Assembly: GCA_013388855.1 (NCBI GenBank)
Contig: JACAEM010000019.1
Location: forward strand, 1 to 64,000
Reading direction: 5' to 3'
Source: Chloroflexota bacterium
GTDB lineage: Bacteria; Chloroflexota; Anaerolineae; Anaerolineales; Villigracilaceae
DNA length: 64,000 bases
The position numbers were made by a program, and so were the translations under genes. Below are positions 5,229 to 14,249 of this stretch, piece by piece; position 1 is the stretch's first letter, and each line of letters starts with the position of its first letter. A model generated the notes under the pieces. It saw only the letters and a program-made list of their open reading frames with translations. It was not told the DNA's origin and ran no database searches.

Positions 5229-6050
5229 TTATTGTGGGATTTCGCCAGCCAGTTCCTTGTCGATCACCTGCTTGAAGACTTCGAGCGGCTGCGCGCCGAC
5301 AATGGCAAGCCCGTTGACGAAGAACGTCGGCGTGGACCGCACACCCAGGTTGACGGCAAAATCGCTATCCGCCTGGATGGCTTGCCGGTATTTGTGGTCT
5401 GCAATACAGGTCTCAAAGACCGTCATATCCAGCCCAAGTTCCTGCGCATATTGTTTGTACACTTCATCGCCCAGTACTTCACTGGAAAAGAGTTTCTCAT
5501 GATATTGCCAGTAGGCGTTCTGCTCGCCTGCACACATGGCGGCTTCGGCGGCGGGAAACGCATCGGGGTGGATAGACGTCAGCGGAAGGTGACGGTACAC
5601 CAGCCTGATCTTTCCGGGATACGCCGCCAACAGAGGCTCATACACCTGCTGATGCCAGCGCCGGCAGTACGGACACTGATAATCGCTGAACTCGATGATC
5701 GTAATGGGGGCATCATTAGGACCGATTGCATACGAGTCTTCGGATTCGACGTCGTATCGGATATATTCCGGTTCGGAAGTGGGGACAGGCGCATCAACCA
5801 CCGGACCCCCAGCCTGCGCCGCCGTTTGTGGAGCGACTGCCGCAGCCTCGGCAAGTTCCATTCCCCAGACTACATAACCGAGAAGGACTCCCGCGGCGAA
5901 CGCCAGCACGGTCAACACCGAGTAAAAATGACTGCGCTTGAAGGTGACCGTATCCTCCTCCACAGATTGGATCGGCTCGTCGCCGAATTCAGGCTCAATC
6001 ACCGGCTCATACGATGTTTCTTCCGTCTTTTTGGTTCTTTTAATAGGCAT
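5229..6050 (-). CDS. Membrane-anchored DsbA-like thiol oxidoreductase
   Basis: Forms or shuffles disulfides outside the membrane. 273 residues from ATG 6050. A charged cytoplasmic N-terminus is followed by one TM (about 41-62), a linker, then a thioredoxin fold with an inserted helical domain. The active site is CPYC (Cys126, Cys129) in FSDYQCPYC, and the cis-Pro is in RSTPTFFVNG. This layout is the BdbD/DsbA-type family. An upstream in-frame ATG (6059) has no ribosome site. A TATAAT ends 7 bp before ATG 6050, so the mRNA is probably leaderless. It may supply oxidised thiols in concert with the thioredoxin-like lipoproteins at 8.2 and 11 kb. Confidence 0.88.
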   Translation of the reverse strand: MPIKRTKKTEETSYEPVIEPEFGDEPIQSVEEDTVTFKRSHFYSVLTVLAFAAGVLLGYVVWGMELAEAAAVAPQTAAQAGGPVVDAPVPTSEPEYIRYDVESEDSYAIGPNDAPITIIEFSDYQCPYCRRWHQQVYEPLLAAYPGKIRLVYRHLPLTSIHPDAFPAAEAAMCAGEQNAYWQYHEKLFSSEVLGDEVYKQYAQELGLDMTVFETCIADHKYRQAIQADSDFAVNLGVRSTPTFFVNGLAIVGAQPLEVFKQVIDKELAGEIPQ

Positions 6051-6057
6051 GGACGGC

Positions 6058-6063
6058 ATTATA
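6058..6063 (-). promoter_or_regulatory. -10 box giving a leaderless transcript
   Basis: TATAAT on the minus strand with seven bases to ATG 6050. The expected transcription start therefore falls at or next to the initiation codon. No good -35 is visible. Confidence 0.5.
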
Positions 6064-6357: not shown

Positions 6358-6395
6358 ACAAGTAGAGCGAGATATTGATCTCGCTCCACTTGTTT
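6356..6395. terminator. Bidirectional terminator shared by convergent genes
   Basis: AAACAAGT and ACTTGTTT flank a GAGCGAGAT / ATCTCGCTC stem with an ATTG loop. It overlaps the stop codons of both neighbouring genes. Confidence 0.85.
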
Positions 6396-7077
6396 AAGGG
6401 GTATTGACTTCCGTTTGGATCCTCCGCTTTCGGAACAGAGCCAGCCCCCGGTCTCGTAACGAGGCGACAGCCCGACGCACCGCCGGGATGCGCACGGTCA
6501 GAAGGAGGAGGACGACCAATCCGTAGATCAGCGGGCGGACGATCTCTCCCTGCAATGCAAAGAAGTCTCCTTTTTTACTCCAGGCGTAGTGAAGAACAAG
6601 AAGAGGGGCGATCAAGTAGATGAATTGGTGCAGCCGTTTCCAGCCTTTGCCGAGGCGCTTTTTCCAGATGTCGAACGATGTCCAGGCCAGGGGAATCAGC
6701 AGGAGAAAGCCCGTCATACCCACGAGGATATAGGGTTTCTCAAAGACCGTCTGGAAGATAAGACTCCATGCCAGCCCATAATCAACATCAACAAAGATAA
6801 TCACATGGATGGTCGCATACAGGAACGCGTACAGACCGAGCGCGCGGCGACGTTTGAGCAGTTCGCTCCATTTGAACAACGCGTTGAGCGGCGTACAGGC
6901 GAGCGACAATACCAACAATGTGATGGCGTGACGCCCCGTACGCTGTTCCAGCTCCTGAATGGGATTGGGGGAGATGTTGCCGGTGAAGAAATCAAAGAAG
7001 ATATGAACGATGGCAGACCATGCGTAGAGATGCATGGCGACCTGAAGAGGGGTGTAGCGTTGGAAGAATTTTTTCAT
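6394..7077 (-). CDS. msrQ: MsrQ, heme membrane subunit of methionine sulfoxide reductase
   Basis: Inner-membrane b-type heme protein that passes electrons from the quinone pool or flavin to MsrP. 227 residues with six hydrophobic helices and the conserved His residues in HLYAWSAIVH, TIHVIIF and RLHQFIYLIAPLLVLHY, as in the YedZ ferric-reductase-like family. The ATG has GGGAAA upstream. It follows msrP on the same strand with a 44-bp gap, the usual msrPQ pair although in the order P then Q. Assignment rests on family hallmarks plus linkage. Confidence 0.92.
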   Translation of the reverse strand: MKKFFQRYTPLQVAMHLYAWSAIVHIFFDFFTGNISPNPIQELEQRTGRHAITLLVLSLACTPLNALFKWSELLKRRRALGLYAFLYATIHVIIFVDVDYGLAWSLIFQTVFEKPYILVGMTGFLLLIPLAWTSFDIWKKRLGKGWKRLHQFIYLIAPLLVLHYAWSKKGDFFALQGEIVRPLIYGLVVLLLLTVRIPAVRRAVASLRDRGLALFRKRRIQTEVNTP

Positions 7078-7121
7078 GATGATTTCCCAACAGGTTTAGG
7101 GAACCTGTCAGATCTTCGAAT

Positions 7122-8075
7122 TTAGTAATTCACGTTCAGATCCATGCCTTCATACAAATGGGCGACCTCTTCAGCATACCCATTGAACATTAGTGTAGGG
7201 CGGCGGTTGAATTCACCGATGCGGCGTTCAGTCGCTTGTGACCAGCGCGGGTGCGGGCGGTTCGGGTTTACGTTCGAGTAAAAACCATATTCGTTCGGTC
7301 CGACCATGCTCCAGAGTGTTGTCGGCTGTTCTGCCACCAATTCTATCCTGACAATCGACTTGATGGATTTGAATCCGTACTTCCACGGGACGACGAGCCG
7401 GATCGGCGCGCCGTTCGAGTTGGGCATGGGCAGACCATACAAACCGGTGGCAAGAATGGTCAGGTTGTGCATGGCTTCGTCGAGCCGCAAACCTTCCTGG
7501 TAGGGCCACGGGTAGAACGGACTGCTCTGCCCGGGCATCTCCTCTGGACGATAGACCGTTTCAAAGCGGACATATTTCGCGTCGGAGGTCGGTTCCACTT
7601 CTTTCAACAGGCTTGAAAGCGTGAACCCCGTCCACGGGATGACCATGCTCCAGGCTTCCACACAGCGCAATCGGTAGATGCGTTCCTCCTGCGTGAATTT
7701 GCCAAGCAGGTCTTCGATGCCAAACGTCCGCGGGTTGTTGACCAGACCGGAGACTTCCACGGTCCACGGTTTGGGGGTGAATTTTTCTGCCAGCCGGGCA
7801 ACACTCTCTTTATCTGTGGTAAATTCGTAAAAATTGTTGTAATTGGAAATATCTTCAAAGGAATTTGCCGGGTCGCCCAACTCGTCCATTTTGGCGGGAA
7901 GATCAGGTAATGCCATGGGAGGAGTTGCCTCCGCTGCCTCGGGCGCACACGCCGCCAATAGCGCAGACCCGGCCAGCACACCCGCGGCTTTCATGAAATC
8001 ACGCCGGGAAAGGTATTGCGAATAGGGCGTGATCTCCGATGATTTGATGGGAACGGATTTGTATGGATTGTTCAT
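7122..8075 (-). CDS. msrP: MsrP, molybdopterin methionine-sulfoxide reductase catalytic subunit
   Basis: Reduces methionine sulfoxide in envelope proteins, with electrons from MsrQ. The start at 8075 is chosen for AGGAG 7 bp upstream. 317 residues. It has a twin-arginine signal SRRDFMKA (23-30) leading into a lipobox-like LLAAC (Cys43), so the protein may be Tat-exported and lipid-anchored, unlike the soluble E. coli enzyme. The sulfite-oxidase fold has the molybdenum-ligating Cys138 in YRLRCVEAW, and the GLYGLPMPNSNGAP and VPWKYGFKS segments are typical of YedY. It heads the msrPQ pair, downstream of the TlpA-like and two-component genes. Confidence 0.93.
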   Translation of the reverse strand: MNNPYKSVPIKSSEITPYSQYLSRRDFMKAAGVLAGSALLAACAPEAAEATPPMALPDLPAKMDELGDPANSFEDISNYNNFYEFTTDKESVARLAEKFTPKPWTVEVSGLVNNPRTFGIEDLLGKFTQEERIYRLRCVEAWSMVIPWTGFTLSSLLKEVEPTSDAKYVRFETVYRPEEMPGQSSPFYPWPYQEGLRLDEAMHNLTILATGLYGLPMPNSNGAPIRLVVPWKYGFKSIKSIVRIELVAEQPTTLWSMVGPNEYGFYSNVNPNRPHPRWSQATERRIGEFNRRPTLMFNGYAEEVAHLYEGMDLNVNY

Positions 8076-8092
8076 GGTTGCTCCTGTGAGTT

Positions 8093-8220
8093 CCATATCA
8101 TTGCGAGCCGGTTTCTGGCGAAGCAATCACCCGTTTAACGAGAAACTCCAATCGAAAGGCTGGTACCGGTTAACTGGAGATTGCTTCATGGCGCTTACAG
8201 CGCCATTCGCAACGACATGG
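8093..8220. repeat. Dispersed palindromic repeat, copy A
   Basis: Ends are inverted copies: CCATATCATTGCGAG at the left, TTCGCAACGACATGG at the right. Internal GAAGCAATCAC and GAGATTGCTTC are also inverted. It fills the gap between msrP and the TlpA-like gene. Related copies lie at 25897-26018 and 62395-62512, with a half copy at 61339-61385. No coding capacity. Confidence 0.75.
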
Positions 8221-8223
8221 TAA

Positions 8224-8775
8224 TTAATATTCTTCAGCCAACAACGCCTGGATGTTCTCCTCGGTCTCTTTATACCTGCCTTCACCAATATGGACGTATC
8301 GGATGTGTCCTTGTTTGTCGATCAAATATAAGGCGGGCCAATAATGATTTTTATAAGCGCGCCAGGTATCGCCGTTGTTATCCTGTGCGATGGGATATTC
8401 GAGCCCATATTCGGCAACGGCGTTTTTTAGGTTCTCGAGATCTGCTTCATACGAAAATTCAGGGAAATGATTCCCGATGATGACCAGTCCCTGTTCGGCG
8501 TATTTGCTGTGCCATTCCTTGAGCGAGGGCATCACATTTTTACAGTTGATGCAGCCGAACGTCCACATTTCGACGATGACCACGTTGCCGCGCAGGTCAG
8601 CGAGGCGGAGCGGAGAATCGACATTCAACCAGGTGTCGTTCGTCAGTTCGGGAGCCGCTCCGAGATCCGGGAGAGAGGCGTGCTTGGTCATGGTGGAGTC
8701 TGCCTGGGAGGAGGAAGCTCTGGATGCGCATCCAAAAAGAATCAAAGTGAGAAATCCAAAGAGAAGTTTTCGCAT
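8224..8775 (-). CDS. TlpA-like thioredoxin-fold lipoprotein
   Basis: Extracytoplasmic thiol-disulfide or peroxidatic protein. The start at 8775 has AAGGAG 8 bp upstream, giving 183 residues. The lipoprotein signal ends ILFGC (Cys16). A Redoxin/AhpC-TSA-like domain starts about residue 40, with CINC (Cys75, Cys78) in MWTFGCINC, cis-Pro in YWPALYLID and a G-H-I-R-Y-V-H-I-G-E-G-R-Y segment, as in the thioredoxin-like domain of DipZ. It sits between msrP and the sensor kinase, and a CcdA-like membrane donor lies at 11765-12436. That suggests it receives electrons from CcdA. Confidence 0.88.
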   Translation of the reverse strand: MRKLLFGFLTLILFGCASRASSSQADSTMTKHASLPDLGAAPELTNDTWLNVDSPLRLADLRGNVVIVEMWTFGCINCKNVMPSLKEWHSKYAEQGLVIIGNHFPEFSYEADLENLKNAVAEYGLEYPIAQDNNGDTWRAYKNHYWPALYLIDKQGHIRYVHIGEGRYKETEENIQALLAEEY

Positions 8776-8831
8776 GGTCAGTCTCCTTGATGTCCCCATT
8801 CTAGGAAAACTTCCTTACAAAAGGATTACGG

Positions 8832-8867
8832 AAAAATAAACAGACCCTAAGGGTTTTAAGTCTGTTT
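8832..8867 (-). terminator. Terminator of the regulator-kinase operon
   Basis: Minus strand AAACAGAC / GTCTGTTT stem followed by ATTTTT. It overlaps the stop codon of the kinase gene. Confidence 0.75.
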
Positions 8868-10101
8868 ATGGGATAATGAACGTGAACTGCGTGCCTTTAC
8901 CGGGTCCGCTCTCCACCTTGATACCGCCACCATGTGCTTGCACGATGCCACGCGCGATGGCGAGACCCAGTCCTGCTCCGCCTGTAGCGCGGCTGCGGGA
9001 CTTTTCGCCGCGATAAAAACGCTCGAAGACATGCGGGATATCTTCCGCACGGATGCCCTCGCCAGTATCACTCACGGTCACTTCCACGCCTGAGGCTGTT
9101 CGCCGCACCCAAACGCTGACCCGCCCCCGGGCGGGCGTATGACGCAGCGCGTTGCCGATAAGATTGTTGAGCACGCGCCCAATGGACTGTGTGTCCATCA
9201 TGACCGGGTCCACATCGGAATCGACGTTGCCTTCGAGCGTGATGCTCTGCTGCTTGGCGAGTTCGGTGAAACTTTCGAGCGTATCAGAAACGAGATCACC
9301 CAGCGACGACTCAGCGCGATGAAGCGGAAAGCCACCCGCATCGAGTTGTGCCATCTGGAAAAGGTCATCGATCAGGGCGGAGAGATTCTTCACATCGCGC
9401 TGCGCTGTGTGGAGATACCGCATACTTGTATCGGGGTCATCCACCACACCATCGGCTAAGGCTTCGAGGATTGCACGCATGGAGGTGAGCGGGGTTTGCA
9501 AATCGTGGCTCACCCAGGCGATGAGGTCGCGGCGCATGGTATCGAGTTCACGCTGCTTCTGGTCGGCGGCTTGTAATTGCTCCGCCATCTGGTTGAACGT
9601 GACCGCCAGCGCAGCCACCTCATCCCGCCCATTGACAGGGACGCGCGTTTCCAAGTCTCCATCTGCCAGTTTTTCCGCCGCCCCTTTCAATTGATGGATA
9701 CGCTCCGTGATCGTGTTCGACAGGAAATACCCCAGCACCATCGCCATGCCGCCCGCAAACACAAGCAGCACAATGGCCAATAACAGATCATGCTCGCTGG
9801 CAAACATCATCTGCGCCGAAAACCAGACATTGAAAAAGGTCAGGAGGCTGGCGAGGGCATATCCGCCCAACAATGTCCAACGAAGCGTAGGAGAGAAGTT
9901 GATCCAGCCCAAGCGGTAGGCAATATATCCCGCCAGCGCCGAGACCAGCGCCGTGATGCCGAGATACAACGCCATCAATCCCAGTTCCTTCATGGGCGGC
10001 AACATCACGAGGAAGAAGATGCCCAGCGAGACGGCGACGATCAACAAGATGCCGATCACAAGGCGGACAGGCATGGAGGTTTGGGAGAGGGTTGTTTTCA
10101 T
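8866..10101 (-). CDS. Sensor histidine kinase (four TM helices, HAMP)
   Basis: 411 residues from ATG 10101. A TTG at 10140 would extend it into a palindromic repeat and is less likely. Four TM helices (about 12-33, 41-60, 72-95, 107-128) leave almost no external loop, so the signal is probably sensed in or at the membrane. HAMP is at about 125-178. The H-box WVSHDLQTPL gives His199, followed by an N-box (NNLIGNALRH), DTGEGI and GLGLAIARGI. It is paired with the regulator immediately upstream. By position between msrPQ and the Met-rich redoxin, it may control this redox island, as HprSR does for msrPQ in E. coli. That is inference. Confidence 0.88.
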   Translation of the reverse strand: MKTTLSQTSMPVRLVIGILLIVAVSLGIFFLVMLPPMKELGLMALYLGITALVSALAGYIAYRLGWINFSPTLRWTLLGGYALASLLTFFNVWFSAQMMFASEHDLLLAIVLLVFAGGMAMVLGYFLSNTITERIHQLKGAAEKLADGDLETRVPVNGRDEVAALAVTFNQMAEQLQAADQKQRELDTMRRDLIAWVSHDLQTPLTSMRAILEALADGVVDDPDTSMRYLHTAQRDVKNLSALIDDLFQMAQLDAGGFPLHRAESSLGDLVSDTLESFTELAKQQSITLEGNVDSDVDPVMMDTQSIGRVLNNLIGNALRHTPARGRVSVWVRRTASGVEVTVSDTGEGIRAEDIPHVFERFYRGEKSRSRATGGAGLGLAIARGIVQAHGGGIKVESGPGKGTQFTFIIP

Positions 10102-10114
10102 AAAAAGGTTTTCG

Positions 10115-10167
10115 CCCTGAGCGGAGTGGAACGCAGACAAAGGGCGCTTCGACTTCGCTACGCTCAG
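10115..10167. repeat. Palindromic intergenic repeat (CTGAGCG type)
   Basis: CCCTGAGCGGAGTGGAACGC at the left is matched by an inverted CTTCGACTTCGCTACGCTCAG-like arm at the right. It lies between the regulator and kinase genes. A short relative lies at 14632-14651. Confidence 0.65.
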
Positions 10168-10180
10168 CGCGATAAGTTAA

Positions 10181-10873
10181 TCACGGTTCAAATTTATAAC
10201 CAACACCCCAGACGGTGAGCAGCCGTGCGGGCTTCGACGCATCCTCTTCGATCTTTTCGCGCAAACGCCGCACATGCACCGTCACCGTGCTGGGGTCGAT
10301 GTACAGCGCGCCGCCCCAGATGCGCTCCAACAGTTGTTCACGCGTGAAGACTTGTTTGGGATGCCGCGCCAACAAATACAGCATGTCGAACTCTTTAACG
10401 GTCAACTCGACGGGAGACCCTTTGACTGTGACGACGCGGCTCTTTGGGTCGATGGATAGTCCATCGAACGACAGTGGACGTTCATTCTCCGCCGCGTCCT
10501 GTTCCCGTCCGAGACGCCGCATCACCGCCCGCACGCGGCTGACCAGTTCCTGCGGGCTGAACGGCTTGACCACGTAGTCGTCCGCGCCCATTTCGAGACC
10601 GGCGATGCGGTCGATCTCCTCGCGGCGCGCTGTCAGCATAATGATCGGCACATTGGAACGGTCACGCAGCCAGCGGGTGAGAGAGAGACCGTCCACTTCA
10701 GGGAGCATCAAGTCCAGGACCACGAAGTCCGGCATCTGGCGTTCGATCATGCCCATTGCCTGTTTCCCATCCGAAGCGATCTGCACTGCAAAACCCGCCC
10801 GTTTGAGGTAGAGACTCACCACCTCCGCAATACTGGCTTCATCTTCTACGACGAGGATGTTCTTTGCATTCAT
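10181..10873 (-). CDS. OmpR-family response regulator
   Basis: DNA-binding partner of the kinase just downstream. 230 residues. The receiver domain (5-120) has the acidic pair EDE, phospho-acceptor Asp54 (VVLDLMLPE), Thr in MLTARR and Lys in VVKPFSP. The C-terminal winged helix (about 130-228) ends VWGVGYKFEP. About 80 bp holding a palindromic repeat separate it from the kinase. It is divergent from the Met-rich redoxin gene 123 bp away, so both could be controlled from the shared intergenic region. Confidence 0.93.
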   Translation of the reverse strand: MNAKNILVVEDEASIAEVVSLYLKRAGFAVQIASDGKQAMGMIERQMPDFVVLDLMLPEVDGLSLTRWLRDRSNVPIIMLTARREEIDRIAGLEMGADDYVVKPFSPQELVSRVRAVMRRLGREQDAAENERPLSFDGLSIDPKSRVVTVKGSPVELTVKEFDMLYLLARHPKQVFTREQLLERIWGGALYIDPSTVTVHVRRLREKIEEDASKPARLLTVWGVGYKFEP

Positions 10874-10996
10874 TGGATGGAATCATACTCCAAGGTCAAG
10901 CGAAATGGTGGATGTGTTCAGAATTTCGTAATGATTGTACAGCCGTTTCGTAAGGATGGATTGCTATCATGTCGGAAATCAACAAAGGAGCCGTGT

Positions 10997-11710
10997 ATGA
11001 AAAACCGAAATATTGTGTTGCACGTGATGTTATTGCTTTTGTTCGTGCTGTCAGCCTGTGGAGGAACCGCGCCTGACGCCATGGAGAAGCCTGAAGAGGC
11101 GATGATGGAAAAACCAACCGAATCGTCCATGATGGAGAAGCCTACGGAAGAAGCCATGATGATGGATGAGACTCCCACTGCCGATGCGATGATGCTGCAT
11201 GAAACACCCACACCTGAGGCGATGATGGAGCCAACGGAAGATGCCATGATGGAATCGCCTGCCTGGTTCAGCGCCACCTTCCAGGATATCCGCAGCGGAG
11301 AGACGTTCACGATCCATGATTTCGACGGCAAGGTTGTGCTCGTGGAAACAATGGCTGTCTGGTGCTCAACGTGTTTCCAGCAGCAGGCGCAGATCAAAGC
11401 CCTGCATGAGGCGTTTGGGATGCGGGAGGATTTCATCAGCCTCTCGCTGGATATCGACCCCAACGAGGATGAATCTGCCCTGACGAATTACACTCAAAAG
11501 AACAGCGGCTTCGACTGGCGTTACGCGATCTCTGGTCCCGAGGTGGCGCGTGAGATCGGGAATTTGTACGGTACCCAGTTTTTGAACCCGCCTTCCGCCC
11601 CCATCCTAGTTATTGACCGTCATGGGGATGTGCATCCGCTCCCGTTCGGACTCAAGAGTGCGGAGGATTTGATGAAGGAAATCCAGCCGTTTTTGGATGA
11701 GGCAATGTAG
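10997..11710 (+). CDS. Redoxin lipoprotein with methionine-rich linker
   Basis: 237 residues from ATG 10997, which has AAAGGAG 6 bp upstream. The lipoprotein signal ends VLSAC (Cys21). Residues 28-87 form a low-complexity linker with 14 methionines, nearly all in MM or MMM clusters spaced 8-11 residues apart within EKPTEEAMM-like units. A thioredoxin-fold domain follows with CSTC (Cys123, Cys126) in AVWCSTCFQQ and cis-Pro in PSAPILVID. Met-rich envelope peptides (MrpX) act with YedYZ/MsrPQ as scavengers of hypochlorite in Azospira. Here a comparable segment is fused to a redoxin and lies near msrPQ. The linker may be an oxidant sink repaired by MsrP, or a Cu(I) site. A CcdA-like gene follows. 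Confidence 0.88.
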   Translation: MKNRNIVLHVMLLLLFVLSACGGTAPDAMEKPEEAMMEKPTESSMMEKPTEEAMMMDETPTADAMMLHETPTPEAMMEPTEDAMMESPAWFSATFQDIRSGETFTIHDFDGKVVLVETMAVWCSTCFQQQAQIKALHEAFGMREDFISLSLDIDPNEDESALTNYTQKNSGFDWRYAISGPEVAREIGNLYGTQFLNPPSAPILVIDRHGDVHPLPFGLKSAEDLMKEIQPFLDEAM

Positions 11711-11717
11711 TGTAGTT

Positions 11718-11754
11718 ATGGCTTTGTCGGGGGCTTGGCCCCCTACAAAGCCAT
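11718..11754 (+). other. Strong intercistronic hairpin
   Basis: ATGGCTTTG / CAAAGCCAT arms enclose GGGGGC-TTG-GCCCCC. There is no T-run, so it is more likely an mRNA-stabilising or processing hairpin, or a mobile palindrome, than a terminator. It lies between the redoxin and CcdA-like genes. Confidence 0.6.
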
Positions 11755-11764
11755 CTGAGTGACA

Positions 11765-12436
11765 ATGGAAACCATCCTCACCTCCCTTTCTTTAGGATTG
11801 CTTGCCACCACCAGCCCGTGCGTGTTGCCGTTGTACCCGGGTTTTCTCGCCTACATCAGCAGCGGGCAGAATGGTCTGCAAAATAAAACGAGCCGGTATT
11901 TTCTCGGTTTCTTTGTACTTACCGGTGTGTTGACCATGATGCTGGCGCTGGGCGGGATCATTGCCCTGCTTTCCGTATCCATTGGGAGGGTTTTGTCGTT
12001 TATCGTTCCTGTTGCCGATGCGATTATTATTTTGTTCGGGCTCCTGTTGCTGCTGAATATCAACCCATTCAAGAGCCTGCCGCAAGTGCAAGCGCCGGTG
12101 CTATCGCATCCATTTGTCAACGCGTTCCTGTACGGGCTGCTCTACGGACCGATCGCCCTGCCCTGTTCCGGTCCGCTGGTGGTGAGCATCTTTGCCCTCT
12201 CGCTGACCGCGGTGGATGCGTTTAGCAAGCTCAATGTTTTTTTCTGGTTCGGTATGGGGTTTGGCATCCCGCTGTTACTGCTTTCATTCCTCTCGGGTGC
12301 GGCACAGCGCTGGATTACGCGCCAGTTTGCGATTCGCGCCCGGTTGATCAATGTAGTCAGTGGACTGTTATTGCTGGGTGTGGGAACGTACGATCTATAC
12401 GTTAACTGGTCACTGTTACAGATATACCTTACATGA
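11765..12436 (+). CDS. CcdA/DsbD-like transmembrane thiol electron carrier
   Basis: Moves reducing equivalents from cytoplasmic thioredoxin across the membrane to exported thioredoxin-fold proteins. 223 residues, six TM helices, with the paired redox cysteines in TTSPCVLPLYPG (helix 1) and ALPCSGPLV (helix 4), the CcdA signature. A GTG six bases upstream is an alternative start, and neither has a strong ribosome site. It lies directly after the Met-rich redoxin lipoprotein, its obvious client, and close to the TlpA-like lipoprotein. Its end overlaps the convergent cyclase gene by 8 bp. Confidence 0.9.
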   Translation: METILTSLSLGLLATTSPCVLPLYPGFLAYISSGQNGLQNKTSRYFLGFFVLTGVLTMMLALGGIIALLSVSIGRVLSFIVPVADAIIILFGLLLLLNINPFKSLPQVQAPVLSHPFVNAFLYGLLYGPIALPCSGPLVVSIFALSLTAVDAFSKLNVFFWFGMGFGIPLLLLSFLSGAAQRWITRQFAIRARLINVVSGLLLLGVGTYDLYVNWSLLQIYLT

Positions 12437-14072
12437 TTTCCAATGCTTCAATATCGTTGGACTCGGATTTGTTATAAATCGAAACCCGGTTGCGCCCGGC
12501 GTGTTTCGCCGCATAAAGTGCCTGGTCTGCCGCCCGCAGGAGTTCCTCTTTTGTATTGCCATGATCGGGATAACAGGCAACGCCCACGGAGATTGTAATG
12601 GAAAGATTGAATCTTCCATATGGGATGTAGAGCCGGTTGATCGTTTGATGTAATTCATCCGCCCGGTCCATGGCGGTCTCAATGTTGATGTTGGGCATTA
12701 CCAACACAAGTTCCTCTCCACCGTAGCGGCAGGCAAAGTCACCGTGACGACTCCCGGCGGTGATGGTCTCGGCAAGCGTACGCAGGACGATATCTCCGGC
12801 TTCGTGCCCGTAGGTATCGTTCACGTCCTTGAAGTGATCAATATCCATCATCACGATACAGAGCGGATATTCCTCCCGTTCCGCGCGCGCGAGTTCACGC
12901 TCCAGCGTTTCCTCCAGATAACGGCGGTTGAACAGGTTCGTTAATGGATCGCGGATGGCTTGCTCACGCAGTTGACTTTGGAGCAGTCCAATCTCAATCA
13001 ACTGAGTATGCAATTTGTCGTTGGCGCGCATGAGGTCTTTTTCCACCTGCTTCCGATCCGTAATATCGCGGAAGACGATAATGCGCCCGCTGAGGTTCTG
13101 CTGGGCATCATAAAGCGGGGTCATGCGCAGGTCCATGTAACGGGATGGCATGTGTGGCAGGCGCAGTTCGGTGCGGGTGTCATCGTTCAACAGGGTGCTG
13201 ATCTGCTCCCACCAGTCTTTTAGCACGCTGGAGACATTCTTCCCGATATAGAATTGGCTTTCGTTGTTGAGGAGGCGCGCCATGGCGGGGTTGATATCCA
13301 CGATTCGCCCTTGTGCATCCAACACCAAGATACCATCGCTCATGTTCTCGATGAGACGGCTGCGCGCCACCGGAATCAGATCCATGAAACGATATCGAAA
13401 GAAGGAGTAGGCAAACAGGATTCCCGATAACCCAAAACTGACGGGCGCCAGATCCATCGCGAGCGCTGTAGAAAAGTTCAACTCACTGTATAGACTTGCC
13501 GCCCACGGAATGGAGGACGCCAGCAGGAATTGATAGTACTGATTCCGCAATACCGGGCTCGAACGGATGGTACCGACGATCAACAGTACGAATCCCGCGG
13601 CAATCACTGCATACGAATAAACCATGATTACAAAATACCAGGGGCCGCGCATATATTGGACCACCAGCATACCATTGACATCGAGCGAGTTGATGGATCG
13701 ATAGATCAGATGGTGGTATTCATTCGTCCATTGCAAAAGCAAAGAGATAACGGGGATCACGAAAAGCAGGGACACATGGAGCGGTTTCAACCACCTCTCA
13801 TGATGTGTGAACTGCAATACATAGATCAGGTATAACACCGGGATCGAGACCACCCCCGTGTACATTGTTTTCAGCCAGAAAAGTTTTGCCGGCGAGGAAA
13901 TATCCAGCCAGGACATGGCATACGAACCGGACCATACTGCCATGGAGAGTAACAACATTCTTAGCGTGAATGAACCCGGGGCAGAGCGCCACCAGGCAAT
14001 GAACGCGGCAAGCAATGAGATCAGGGTTGATATTGCCAGATAGAAAACATATGGGTGTACTTGGACGTGCAT
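12429..14072 (-). CDS. Diguanylate cyclase with 7TM and PAS sensor domains
   Basis: Makes c-di-GMP. The start at 14072 is chosen for GGTGA 4 bp upstream; 547 residues. The N-terminal seven-helix region (about 1-225) resembles the histidine-kinase N-terminal 7TM domain. A PAS domain follows (about 240-350, with ILVLDAQGRIVDINPA and VFRDITDRK), then a short coiled coil and a GGDEF domain beginning RDPLTNLFNRRYLEE. The active site is GGEEL, an allowed variant. RHGD five residues upstream is a complete I-site for product inhibition. It stands alone on the minus strand. A second cyclase is at 49967-51115. Confidence 0.92.
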   Translation of the reverse strand: MHVQVHPYVFYLAISTLISLLAAFIAWWRSAPGSFTLRMLLLSMAVWSGSYAMSWLDISSPAKLFWLKTMYTGVVSIPVLYLIYVLQFTHHERWLKPLHVSLLFVIPVISLLLQWTNEYHHLIYRSINSLDVNGMLVVQYMRGPWYFVIMVYSYAVIAAGFVLLIVGTIRSSPVLRNQYYQFLLASSIPWAASLYSELNFSTALAMDLAPVSFGLSGILFAYSFFRYRFMDLIPVARSRLIENMSDGILVLDAQGRIVDINPAMARLLNNESQFYIGKNVSSVLKDWWEQISTLLNDDTRTELRLPHMPSRYMDLRMTPLYDAQQNLSGRIIVFRDITDRKQVEKDLMRANDKLHTQLIEIGLLQSQLREQAIRDPLTNLFNRRYLEETLERELARAEREEYPLCIVMMDIDHFKDVNDTYGHEAGDIVLRTLAETITAGSRHGDFACRYGGEELVLVMPNINIETAMDRADELHQTINRLYIPYGRFNLSITISVGVACYPDHGNTKEELLRAADQALYAAKHAGRNRVSIYNKSESNDIEALEIM

Positions 14073-14249
14073 GATTTCACCACAATTGGTCCAATTGTAG
14101 TGTGTCATTGCTTGTACCTGACTTGCAGGCTGTTAACAAATGGGATTTATTTGTTTAGTCCAATTTTCAGAGGTAAAACCATTCCGAGTACCTAACGAAA
14201 TAAAAAACCTTGGGTCGATTGGAAAGTTCTTCAGCCTACCCGGAACGGC

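Follow-up and report, generated by a model that had tools for sequence, protein, structure and literature searches.

Gene content and organisation of the locus

The window analysed here, i.e. the whole stretch of 64,000 nucleotides (nt) from contig JACAEM010000019.1 of a Chloroflexota bacterium (Villigracilaceae; assembly GCA_013388855.1), carries two divergent gene groups with predicted roles in methionine (Met) repair and thiol redox chemistry at the cell envelope, among them a redoxin lipoprotein with a Met-rich stalk that is the main subject of this report. The source genome comprises 4.03 Mb in 46 contigs. Seven genes had been named in the initial annotation, which was made from the letters alone (MsrQ, MsrP, a TlpA-like lipoprotein, a kinase, a regulator, the redoxin and CcdA), and profile searches recovered all of them at the same places. 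On the minus strand the order of transcription is regulator, kinase, DipZ-type (TlpA-like) redoxin, MsrP, MsrQ and a DsbA/Rcas_1661-like thioredoxin; the stalk redoxin and CcdA are encoded on the plus strand, divergent from the regulator-to-msrQ side (Table 1). The thioredoxin gene and the twin-arginine translocation (Tat) lipoprotein signal of MsrP had not been listed before. While the gene identities stood, two of the starts did not: the stalk redoxin most likely begins at 10997 and not at 10877, because a predicted promoter box occupies 10924-10954, and the DipZ-type gene most likely begins at 8775, because a -10-like element overlaps its first ATG.

Table 1 Positions of genes, protein segments and predicted regulatory elements in and around the locus
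Feature	Position	Strand	Evidence
MsrQ, haem-binding membrane subunit	6394-7077	minus	NF003831 178 bits (cut-off 130); Ferric_reduct PF01794; adjoins msrP
MsrP, molybdenum methionine sulfoxide reductase, predicted Tat lipoprotein (SRRDF...LLAAC), catalytic RLRCVEAW	7122-8126	minus	NF003767 460 bits (cut-off 207)
DipZ-type (TlpA-like) redoxin lipoprotein, WTFGCINC	8224-8799 (probable true start 8775)	minus	2hyx E 4e-48
Histidine kinase, four hydrophobic helices	8866-10140 (probable true start 10101)	minus	profile search
OmpR/PhoB-type response regulator	10181-10873	minus	profile search
Redoxin lipoprotein, 237 amino acids, lipobox LSAC, WCSTC active site at 11363-11374	10997-11710	plus	
Met-rich stalk of the redoxin lipoprotein, residues 21-87, 14 Met, predicted disordered	11057-11257	plus	
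CcdA-like thiol electron carrier, DsbD_TM protein	11759-12436	plus	profile search
DsbA/DsbG-like Rcas_1661-type thioredoxin	5229-6059	minus	NF041057 149 bits (under cut-off 190)
Direct repeat TTTCGTAA...GTAAG (GTAA-N18-GTAAG) upstream of the stalk redoxin	10924-10954	plus	predicted regulator box
Direct repeat CGTAA-N7-GTAAG upstream of the DipZ-type redoxin-msrPQ operon	8814-8830	minus	predicted regulator box

The Met-rich stalk of the redoxin lipoprotein

In the predicted structure of the redoxin lipoprotein the thioredoxin-like domain has a predicted local distance difference test (pLDDT) score of approximately 97 and the stalk one of approximately 50; solved relatives of the domain include ResA, TlpA and Etrx1. 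The cluster of 14 Met described in the initial annotation is real, and all 14 lie within the 67-residue stalk. Across the source genome, three ATGATG doublets spaced 1-31 nt apart occur only in the stalk redoxin gene (5/5 matches; reversed-pattern control 0). Moreover, the other predicted lipoproteins encoded near redoxin loci (n=114, i.e. 118 minus the four divergent redoxins L142, L146, L159 and L172) have at most five Met within their first 61 residues, and 27 of 42 parsed redoxins have at least six. An origin of the stalk by chance or from low complexity throughout the lineage is hence rejected, for the source genome by the ATGATG pattern and for the redoxin loci by the lipoprotein control. 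Comparing eight hand-picked sister pairs, stalk Met were retained at 77/99 sites and other stalk residues at 221/352 (p 0.006).

Unrelated Met-rich genes are present in relatives of the source genome. Met/Gly-rich runs recur in several of them, and a repeat run coding for a MMEDDEMMNDNGDE-like sequence is located in another gene (G054:C241:2701-2901; L184). At loci that lack the redoxin (n=40, 39 with msrP) we also looked for further Met-rich proteins next to msrP and found no Met-rich lipoprotein; open reading frames (ORFs) with at least nine Met per 60 residues were obtained at 6/40 of these loci, and by eye they were membrane proteins, respiratory-chain proteins or doubtful.

Linkage of the redoxin and CcdA genes to msrP and the two-component system

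Genes were surveyed in 61 genomes (the source genome and 60 relatives), where close redoxin orthologues had E-values of 1e-44 or better and the next match 1e-7. The orthologue was present in ten genomes, including 4/18 of the same genus, and in eight of these ten (the source genome included) the redoxin and CcdA genes were divergent from and less than 5 kb from msrP. In G027 and G048 the pair lies directly opposite MsrPQ and the locus lacks kinase, regulator and DipZ-type redoxin, in G058 it faces the kinase pair with msrP on a separate contig, and in G046 neither msrP nor the kinase pair is in view on the 11-kb contig.

Scanning a collection of genomes from 84,980 species for a peptide pattern, we obtained 60 loci, 55 of which are clear relatives from Chloroflexota, many of them metagenome-assembled genomes of Anaerolineales; the other five were weak. 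Cultivated bacteria that carry the redoxin include Pelolinea submarina and Bellilinea caldifistulae. The 55 are counted as loci: four genomes contribute two each, and ten contigs are shared with the 61-genome survey. CcdA adjoins the redoxin at 52 of the 55 loci, msrP is nearby at 26 and a kinase and regulator pair at 29 (the reading of neighbouring genes left out L164, L166, L167, L169, L159 and L172). Hence the genes stay together in redoxin-bearing relatives, as the neighbourhood survey suggested in the initial annotation was to find out; its expectation that the redoxin and CcdA genes stay with msrPQ holds for relatives that have the redoxin, but not in the other direction, as msrPQ usually occurs without it. 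The redoxin family (E 1e-20 or better) was also detected in 21 genomes of a 400-genome draw from the phylum, and outside the class of the window these were mostly redoxin-CcdA pairs with Met-poor stalks and no msrP seen within a 1.5 kb flank.

Met content of the stalk was compared with gene context, a Met-rich stalk being one with five or more Met (the class of seven loci was entered by hand). Such stalks were present at 37/55 redoxin loci, among them L131 with five Met. They were found in 28/29 kinase-linked redoxins vs 9/26 others (Fisher p 8.8e-7) and in 24/26 msrP-linked redoxins vs 13/29 others (p 1.8e-4), where both tests ignore descent; among loci with 4.5 kb or more of upstream sequence (n=43), the p-values were 3.8e-5 (kinase) and 3.5e-3 (msrP). 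The Met-rich stalk is thus associated with the msrP/two-component setting. In a domain tree (n=52), which excludes the variant-motif Chloroflexota rows L132, L142, L146, L159 and L172, Met-richness required five changes vs 14.7 for shuffled labels, and 12 short-stalk redoxins with no stalk Met formed one clade (support 100/99). No msrP or kinase pair was detected in the fetched stretches of this clade, which for 5/12 members reach less than 4.5 kb upstream. Judged from the sequences, this short-stalk, Met-free paralogue is a natural control for the Met stalk.

Promoter repeats and the sensor kinase

Direct GTAA repeats precede both operons, and the spacing to the -10-like element in the window is the same. 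On the plus strand the last GTAAG begins 15 nt before TATCAT (10950 to 10965; element at 10965-10970), and on the minus strand the last GTAAG begins 15 nt before TAGAAT (8818 to 8803; element at 8798-8803). Therefore one regulator probably drives both the redoxin-CcdA and the redoxin-msrPQ operon. Across the loci, GTAA-N18-GTAA[GT] was present upstream of the redoxin at 20/27 loci with an adjoining regulator (shuffles 0.4%), and GTAA-N7-GTAA upstream of the DipZ-type redoxin or msrP at 23/38 loci (shuffles 0.3%). The latter number divides by first gene into 22/31 where the DipZ-type redoxin is first (plus one N18 form) and 1/7 where msrP is first. The longer form of the redoxin box as it stands in the window has its sole match in the genome here, at two mismatches or fewer (0 here), and the reversed-pattern control also gave one match. 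Direct repeats one or two helical turns apart suit OmpR/PhoB-type binding, and the neighbouring regulator would be the protein that binds. As judged by the promoter repeat, the Met-rich extracytoplasmic segment is predicted to belong to the same regulon as MsrPQ. At L130 an extracytoplasmic function (ECF) sigma factor and an RskA-type anti-sigma factor (L130:183-1529) are divergent from a Met-rich redoxin in place of the two-component pair, which echoes the sigma control of BcrX (see below), and this locus keeps its GTAA box despite the adjoining ECF sigma/RskA pair.

By visual inspection, the kinase contains four hydrophobic helices joined by short loops. Two of these loops, which would be outside if the N-terminus is inside, contain M.PP and NVW..A..MF.S.HDL, conserved in 40 sequences; Met and His residues in these motifs could be sensing residues. 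The HprSR kinase has two transmembrane segments and a large periplasmic sensor, an architecture that the kinase in the window does not fit. Against the heavy-metal sensor family it scored 171 bits, under the cut-off of 293.

A selenoprotein form of the DipZ-type redoxin

The DipZ-type redoxin matches the redoxin domain of Mycobacterium tuberculosis DipZ (2hyx). In 19 of 34 homologues the first cysteine (Cys) of its CxxC is replaced by an in-frame TGA, with a Cys codon in the other 15 and no other stop; a 35th homologue, L135, which ends at a contig end and has the Cys form, was left out of counts and tree. The DipZ-type redoxin beside msrP is accordingly a predicted selenoprotein in these 19 homologues, namely those at L064 (=L123), L066 (=L122), L078, L092, L099, L101, L104, L108, L109, L113, L119, L120, L125, L126, L132, L133, L143, L148 and L152. 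Plain ORF calling splits the gene where it has the selenocysteine (Sec) form. The window has the Cys form (TGC), and its genome still has SelA and tRNA-Sec.

A hairpin resembling a Sec insertion sequence follows the UGA. It has an eight-pair stem with the inner six pairs formed in 19/19 Sec forms, two of these six covarying (change on both sides), and its apical GUU is present in 18/19. Among 11 Cys genes, these pairs are formed by 3 to 10 of the genes and the hairpin is variably decayed, with L106 and L121 keeping most of it. SelA was over the cut-off in all ten Sec-form genomes of the set examined, and tRNA-Sec scored at least 66 bits in 17/19 Sec-form genomes (not G018 and G071), weaker matches being present in every genome and control. 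The tree of DipZ-type redoxins requires approximately eight Sec/Cys changes, at least three of them on firm branches. When three Sec forms were scanned, every NCBIfam selenoprotein model stayed below its cut-off. The stalk redoxin gave a single candidate selenoprotein (L215/L233 in G185), in which TGA stands in frame for the first Cys of the WCxxC and whose genome has tRNA-Sec.

MsrP and possible methionine sulfoxide repair outside the cell

Among 68 MsrP sequences (window included) 60 have the twin-Arg motif, 59 a lipobox after it and 67 the catalytic motif. Since 59/68, the one in the window included, carry twin-Arg and then lipobox, MsrP (by its predicted lipoprotein signal) is likely membrane-seated, as are both redoxins and probably the DsbA-like protein. 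Chloroflexota are single-membrane cells, which membrane anchoring would fit. In the source genome we found no MsrB and one MsrA, which lacks a signal peptide, and therefore MsrP is the only one of MsrA, MsrB and MsrP that could repair methionine sulfoxide outside the cell. This is the strongest functional support beyond gene order for the module proposed below, and it is negative in kind. A second molybdopterin oxidoreductase domain is present in the source genome at C44:96756-97229.

Neighbouring genes

The Rcas_1661-type thioredoxin is often kept behind msrQ in relatives, along with a nucleoside-kinase-like gene, and no Sec was found in this DsbA-like neighbour (Cys in 28/28 motif matches). 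On the other side the 3' ends of ccdA and of a diguanylate cyclase gene (12429-14108) share 8 nt (12429-12436), and a related GGDEF gene recurs beside many of the redoxin loci. A viral or mobile origin was also considered and rejected, as a scan of viral contigs gave ten pattern matches and zero relatives.

Comparison with known systems

YedY1Z1-MrpX of Azospira suillum is similar in having an MsrPQ-type reductase with a dedicated, transcriptionally linked extracytoplasmic Met-rich partner. It differs in that this partner is a separate peptide, whereas here the Met-rich part forms the stalk of a CcdA-adjacent redoxin lipoprotein, and in that the operon here includes a two-component system and a (seleno)redoxin. 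The Azospira genes are reportedly under SigF/NrsF control. In the BcrXQP system of Brucella melitensis (with BcrS-AbcS) a hypochlorous acid (HOCl)-induced Met-rich partner of MsrPQ with MXKDX repeats is cotranscribed with MsrQ and MsrP under ECF sigma control, and the available part of the source mentions neither redoxin nor CcdA (PMC8315932). Compared with the MrpX/BcrX type, the window has no separate short Met-rich peptide, its Met-rich part being a stalk on a folded redoxin (homology to MrpX/BcrX was not compared), and no adjacent ECF sigma/anti-sigma pair, with a two-component pair instead.

The CcdA1-Etrx1-SpMsrAB2 system of Streptococcus pneumoniae likewise has a TlpA-type lipoprotein and CcdA in an Msr operon, and a TlpA-fold lipoprotein with CxxC beside CcdA, as in a CcdA-Etrx relay, is found in the window. 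The acceptor in pneumococcus is however a thiol-type MsrAB (PMC3914529), whereas here we find a molybdenum Msr with its own putative quinol line and a redoxin that carries a Met stalk. With HprSR/CusSR control of hiuH-msrPQ in Escherichia coli the locus shares two-component control of msrPQ and a GTAA-containing box, but it differs by a four-helix short-loop kinase, direct and not inverted repeats, and two divergent operons (PMC9302797). M. tuberculosis DipZ has the homologous redoxin domain (E 4e-48); here the domain is a separate lipoprotein beside msrP, with Sec in 19/34 homologues and CcdA as its own gene. Finally, UxxC selenoproteins of redoxin/TlpA type also have Sec at the first position of the redoxin CxxC, and in the available part of the source we found no description of an MsrPQ operon context (PMC13188914).

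Each half thus has a precedent, a Met-rich sink with MsrPQ in Azospira and Brucella, and, in pneumococcus, an Msr operon that includes CcdA and a lipoprotein of the TlpA type. We found no description of this gene set in the open-licence literature, which is no proof of absence. The parts are known, and the combination (a sink fused to a CcdA-paired redoxin, a two-component regulon of two operons, and a seleno-redoxin) appears to be new.

A proposed regulated methionine-redox module

With confidence slightly better than even, we suggest that the locus encodes a regulated, membrane-anchored methionine-redox module in which the stalk acts as a sponge that is recharged by the neighbouring enzymes. 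Gene content, linkage, GTAA repeats, the family-specific Met-rich stalk and Sec/Cys exchange establish its basis at the sequence level, and from these we infer its biochemistry. The kinase would sense an envelope oxidant and the regulator would switch on both operons. An oxidant of the HOCl, chloramine or peroxide class would be taken up by the Met stalk, whose Met would turn into methionine sulfoxide near the reactive WCxxC that the stalk carries, and in this way the stalk may both soak up the oxidant and shield the redoxin. Anchored in the same membrane, MsrP would reduce the stalk with electrons that reach it from quinol through MsrQ. CcdA would hand electrons from thioredoxin to the WCxxC, so that thiols and sulfenates could be repaired, and possibly also feed the Sec/Cys DipZ-type redoxin, such that two electron lines would recharge one scavenging reductase. 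Only tentatively do we go further and propose a self-shielding reductase, i.e. a sink fused to the thiol reductase it protects. Its Met stalk would be served by quinol through MsrQ and MsrP and its CxxC by thioredoxin through CcdA, two separate electron lines in the membrane, all under a single two-component system whose regulon often includes a Sec redoxin. The partners outside the cytoplasm are predicted to be anchored by lipid or in the membrane, a requirement for cells with a single membrane.

Several observations weigh against the proposed module. The redoxin is accessory, as msrPQ mostly occurs without it (redoxin in 10/61 genomes, msrP over the cut-off in 50/61, including all ten with the redoxin), and the accessory nature of the redoxin-CcdA unit follows also from the 39 fetched msrP loci without redoxin, 12 of which include kinase and regulator. 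Since msrP is common in the family, shared presence says little and adjacency alone is informative. Furthermore, a large share of the association traces back to a single old split on the tree, and linkage and Met content were in part inherited together. Two redoxins that face msrP without a kinase pair are Met-poor (L154 from Bellilinea caldifistulae with one Met, and L170 with two), as is L151 with three Met, which lies opposite the kinase pair while the msrP of this genome (G058) is on a different contig. Conversely, for 9/37 Met-rich redoxins the fetched stretch contains neither msrP nor msrQ nor a kinase pair, although three of these nine (L130, L135 and L153) are on contigs that end within 1.7 kb upstream, and Met-rich stalks without msrP in 10-18 kb are present in G445 and G160, which represent another family of the phylum. 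The promoter evidence is likewise uneven. GTAA-N18-GTAA[GT] was also seen without an adjoining regulator, at 4/12 Met-rich and 2/17 Met-poor loci, and the exact repeat is missing in 7/27 kinase-linked redoxin promoters and in 14/38 on the other side. Lastly, HOCl as the presumed signal is borrowed from proteobacteria. The stalks in G445 and G160 (L211/L230 and L212/L231) are of the MMDEPT and MMADAPT repeat types and are found on a redoxin-CcdA pair.

Alternative explanations

Redoxin and CcdA might simply be an ordinary envelope thiol reductant of the ResA/TlpA/Etrx type, with the stalk a mere flexible tether, its Met a result of repeat growth, and the co-location a matter of stress co-expression with no reaction between MsrP and stalk. 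The plain TlpA/ResA fold of the domain, the occurrence of the mostly Met-poor pair in other classes of the phylum without msrP in the 1.5 kb seen, the near-perfect repeats in some stalks (L119, L120 and L211) and the Met-poor linked loci L154, L170 and L151 are consistent with this explanation. Yet the Met count tracks the two-component setting (28/29), the short-stalk sister clade has no stalk Met at all, lipoproteins encoded nearby are not rich in Met, and the irregular stalks of L140, L152 and L161 retain 9-16 Met. Overall we regard this alternative as unlikely.

We consider it rather improbable that the locus is a copper module, in which the stalk would bind Cu(I), redoxin and CcdA would keep the stalk or a Sco-type target reduced, and MsrP would protect copper-binding Met as with CusF. 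In E. coli MsrPQ is copper-induced and keeps CusF active (PMC9302797), TlpA complexes with ScoI and CoxB (4txo and 4txv) are among the structural relatives, and an SCO1 gene lies near redoxin-CcdA in L127. However, the 36 Met-rich stalks are approximately 25% acidic with approximately 1% His, which is absent in 11/36, SCO1 was seen in that one locus alone (no systematic copper-gene survey was made), and the kinase scored below the heavy-metal sensor cut-off.

A use as in pneumococcus, where CcdA and redoxin would feed an exported MsrA/MsrB and MsrPQ would be a separate neighbour, is very improbable in spite of the CcdA1-Etrx1-SpMsrAB2 operon (PMC3914529) and of Etrx1 being among the sequence and fold relatives of the redoxin, and it cannot apply as such here because the source genome, the only one considered for this point, has no exported MsrA/B as electron acceptor, MsrB being absent and the sole MsrA leaderless.

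Implications

The proposed methionine-redox module would unite three ideas that are known separately, MsrPQ repair, sacrificial Met-rich peptides and CcdA-fed surface redoxins, in a recurring module of mostly uncultured Chloroflexota, soil and water bacteria. It would also add a selenoprotein to a methionine-repair operon and supply a natural control in the form of the short-stalk Met-free paralogues, and it opens the way to a direct test of whether a low-complexity Met stalk may be a designed, enzyme-recharged antioxidant.

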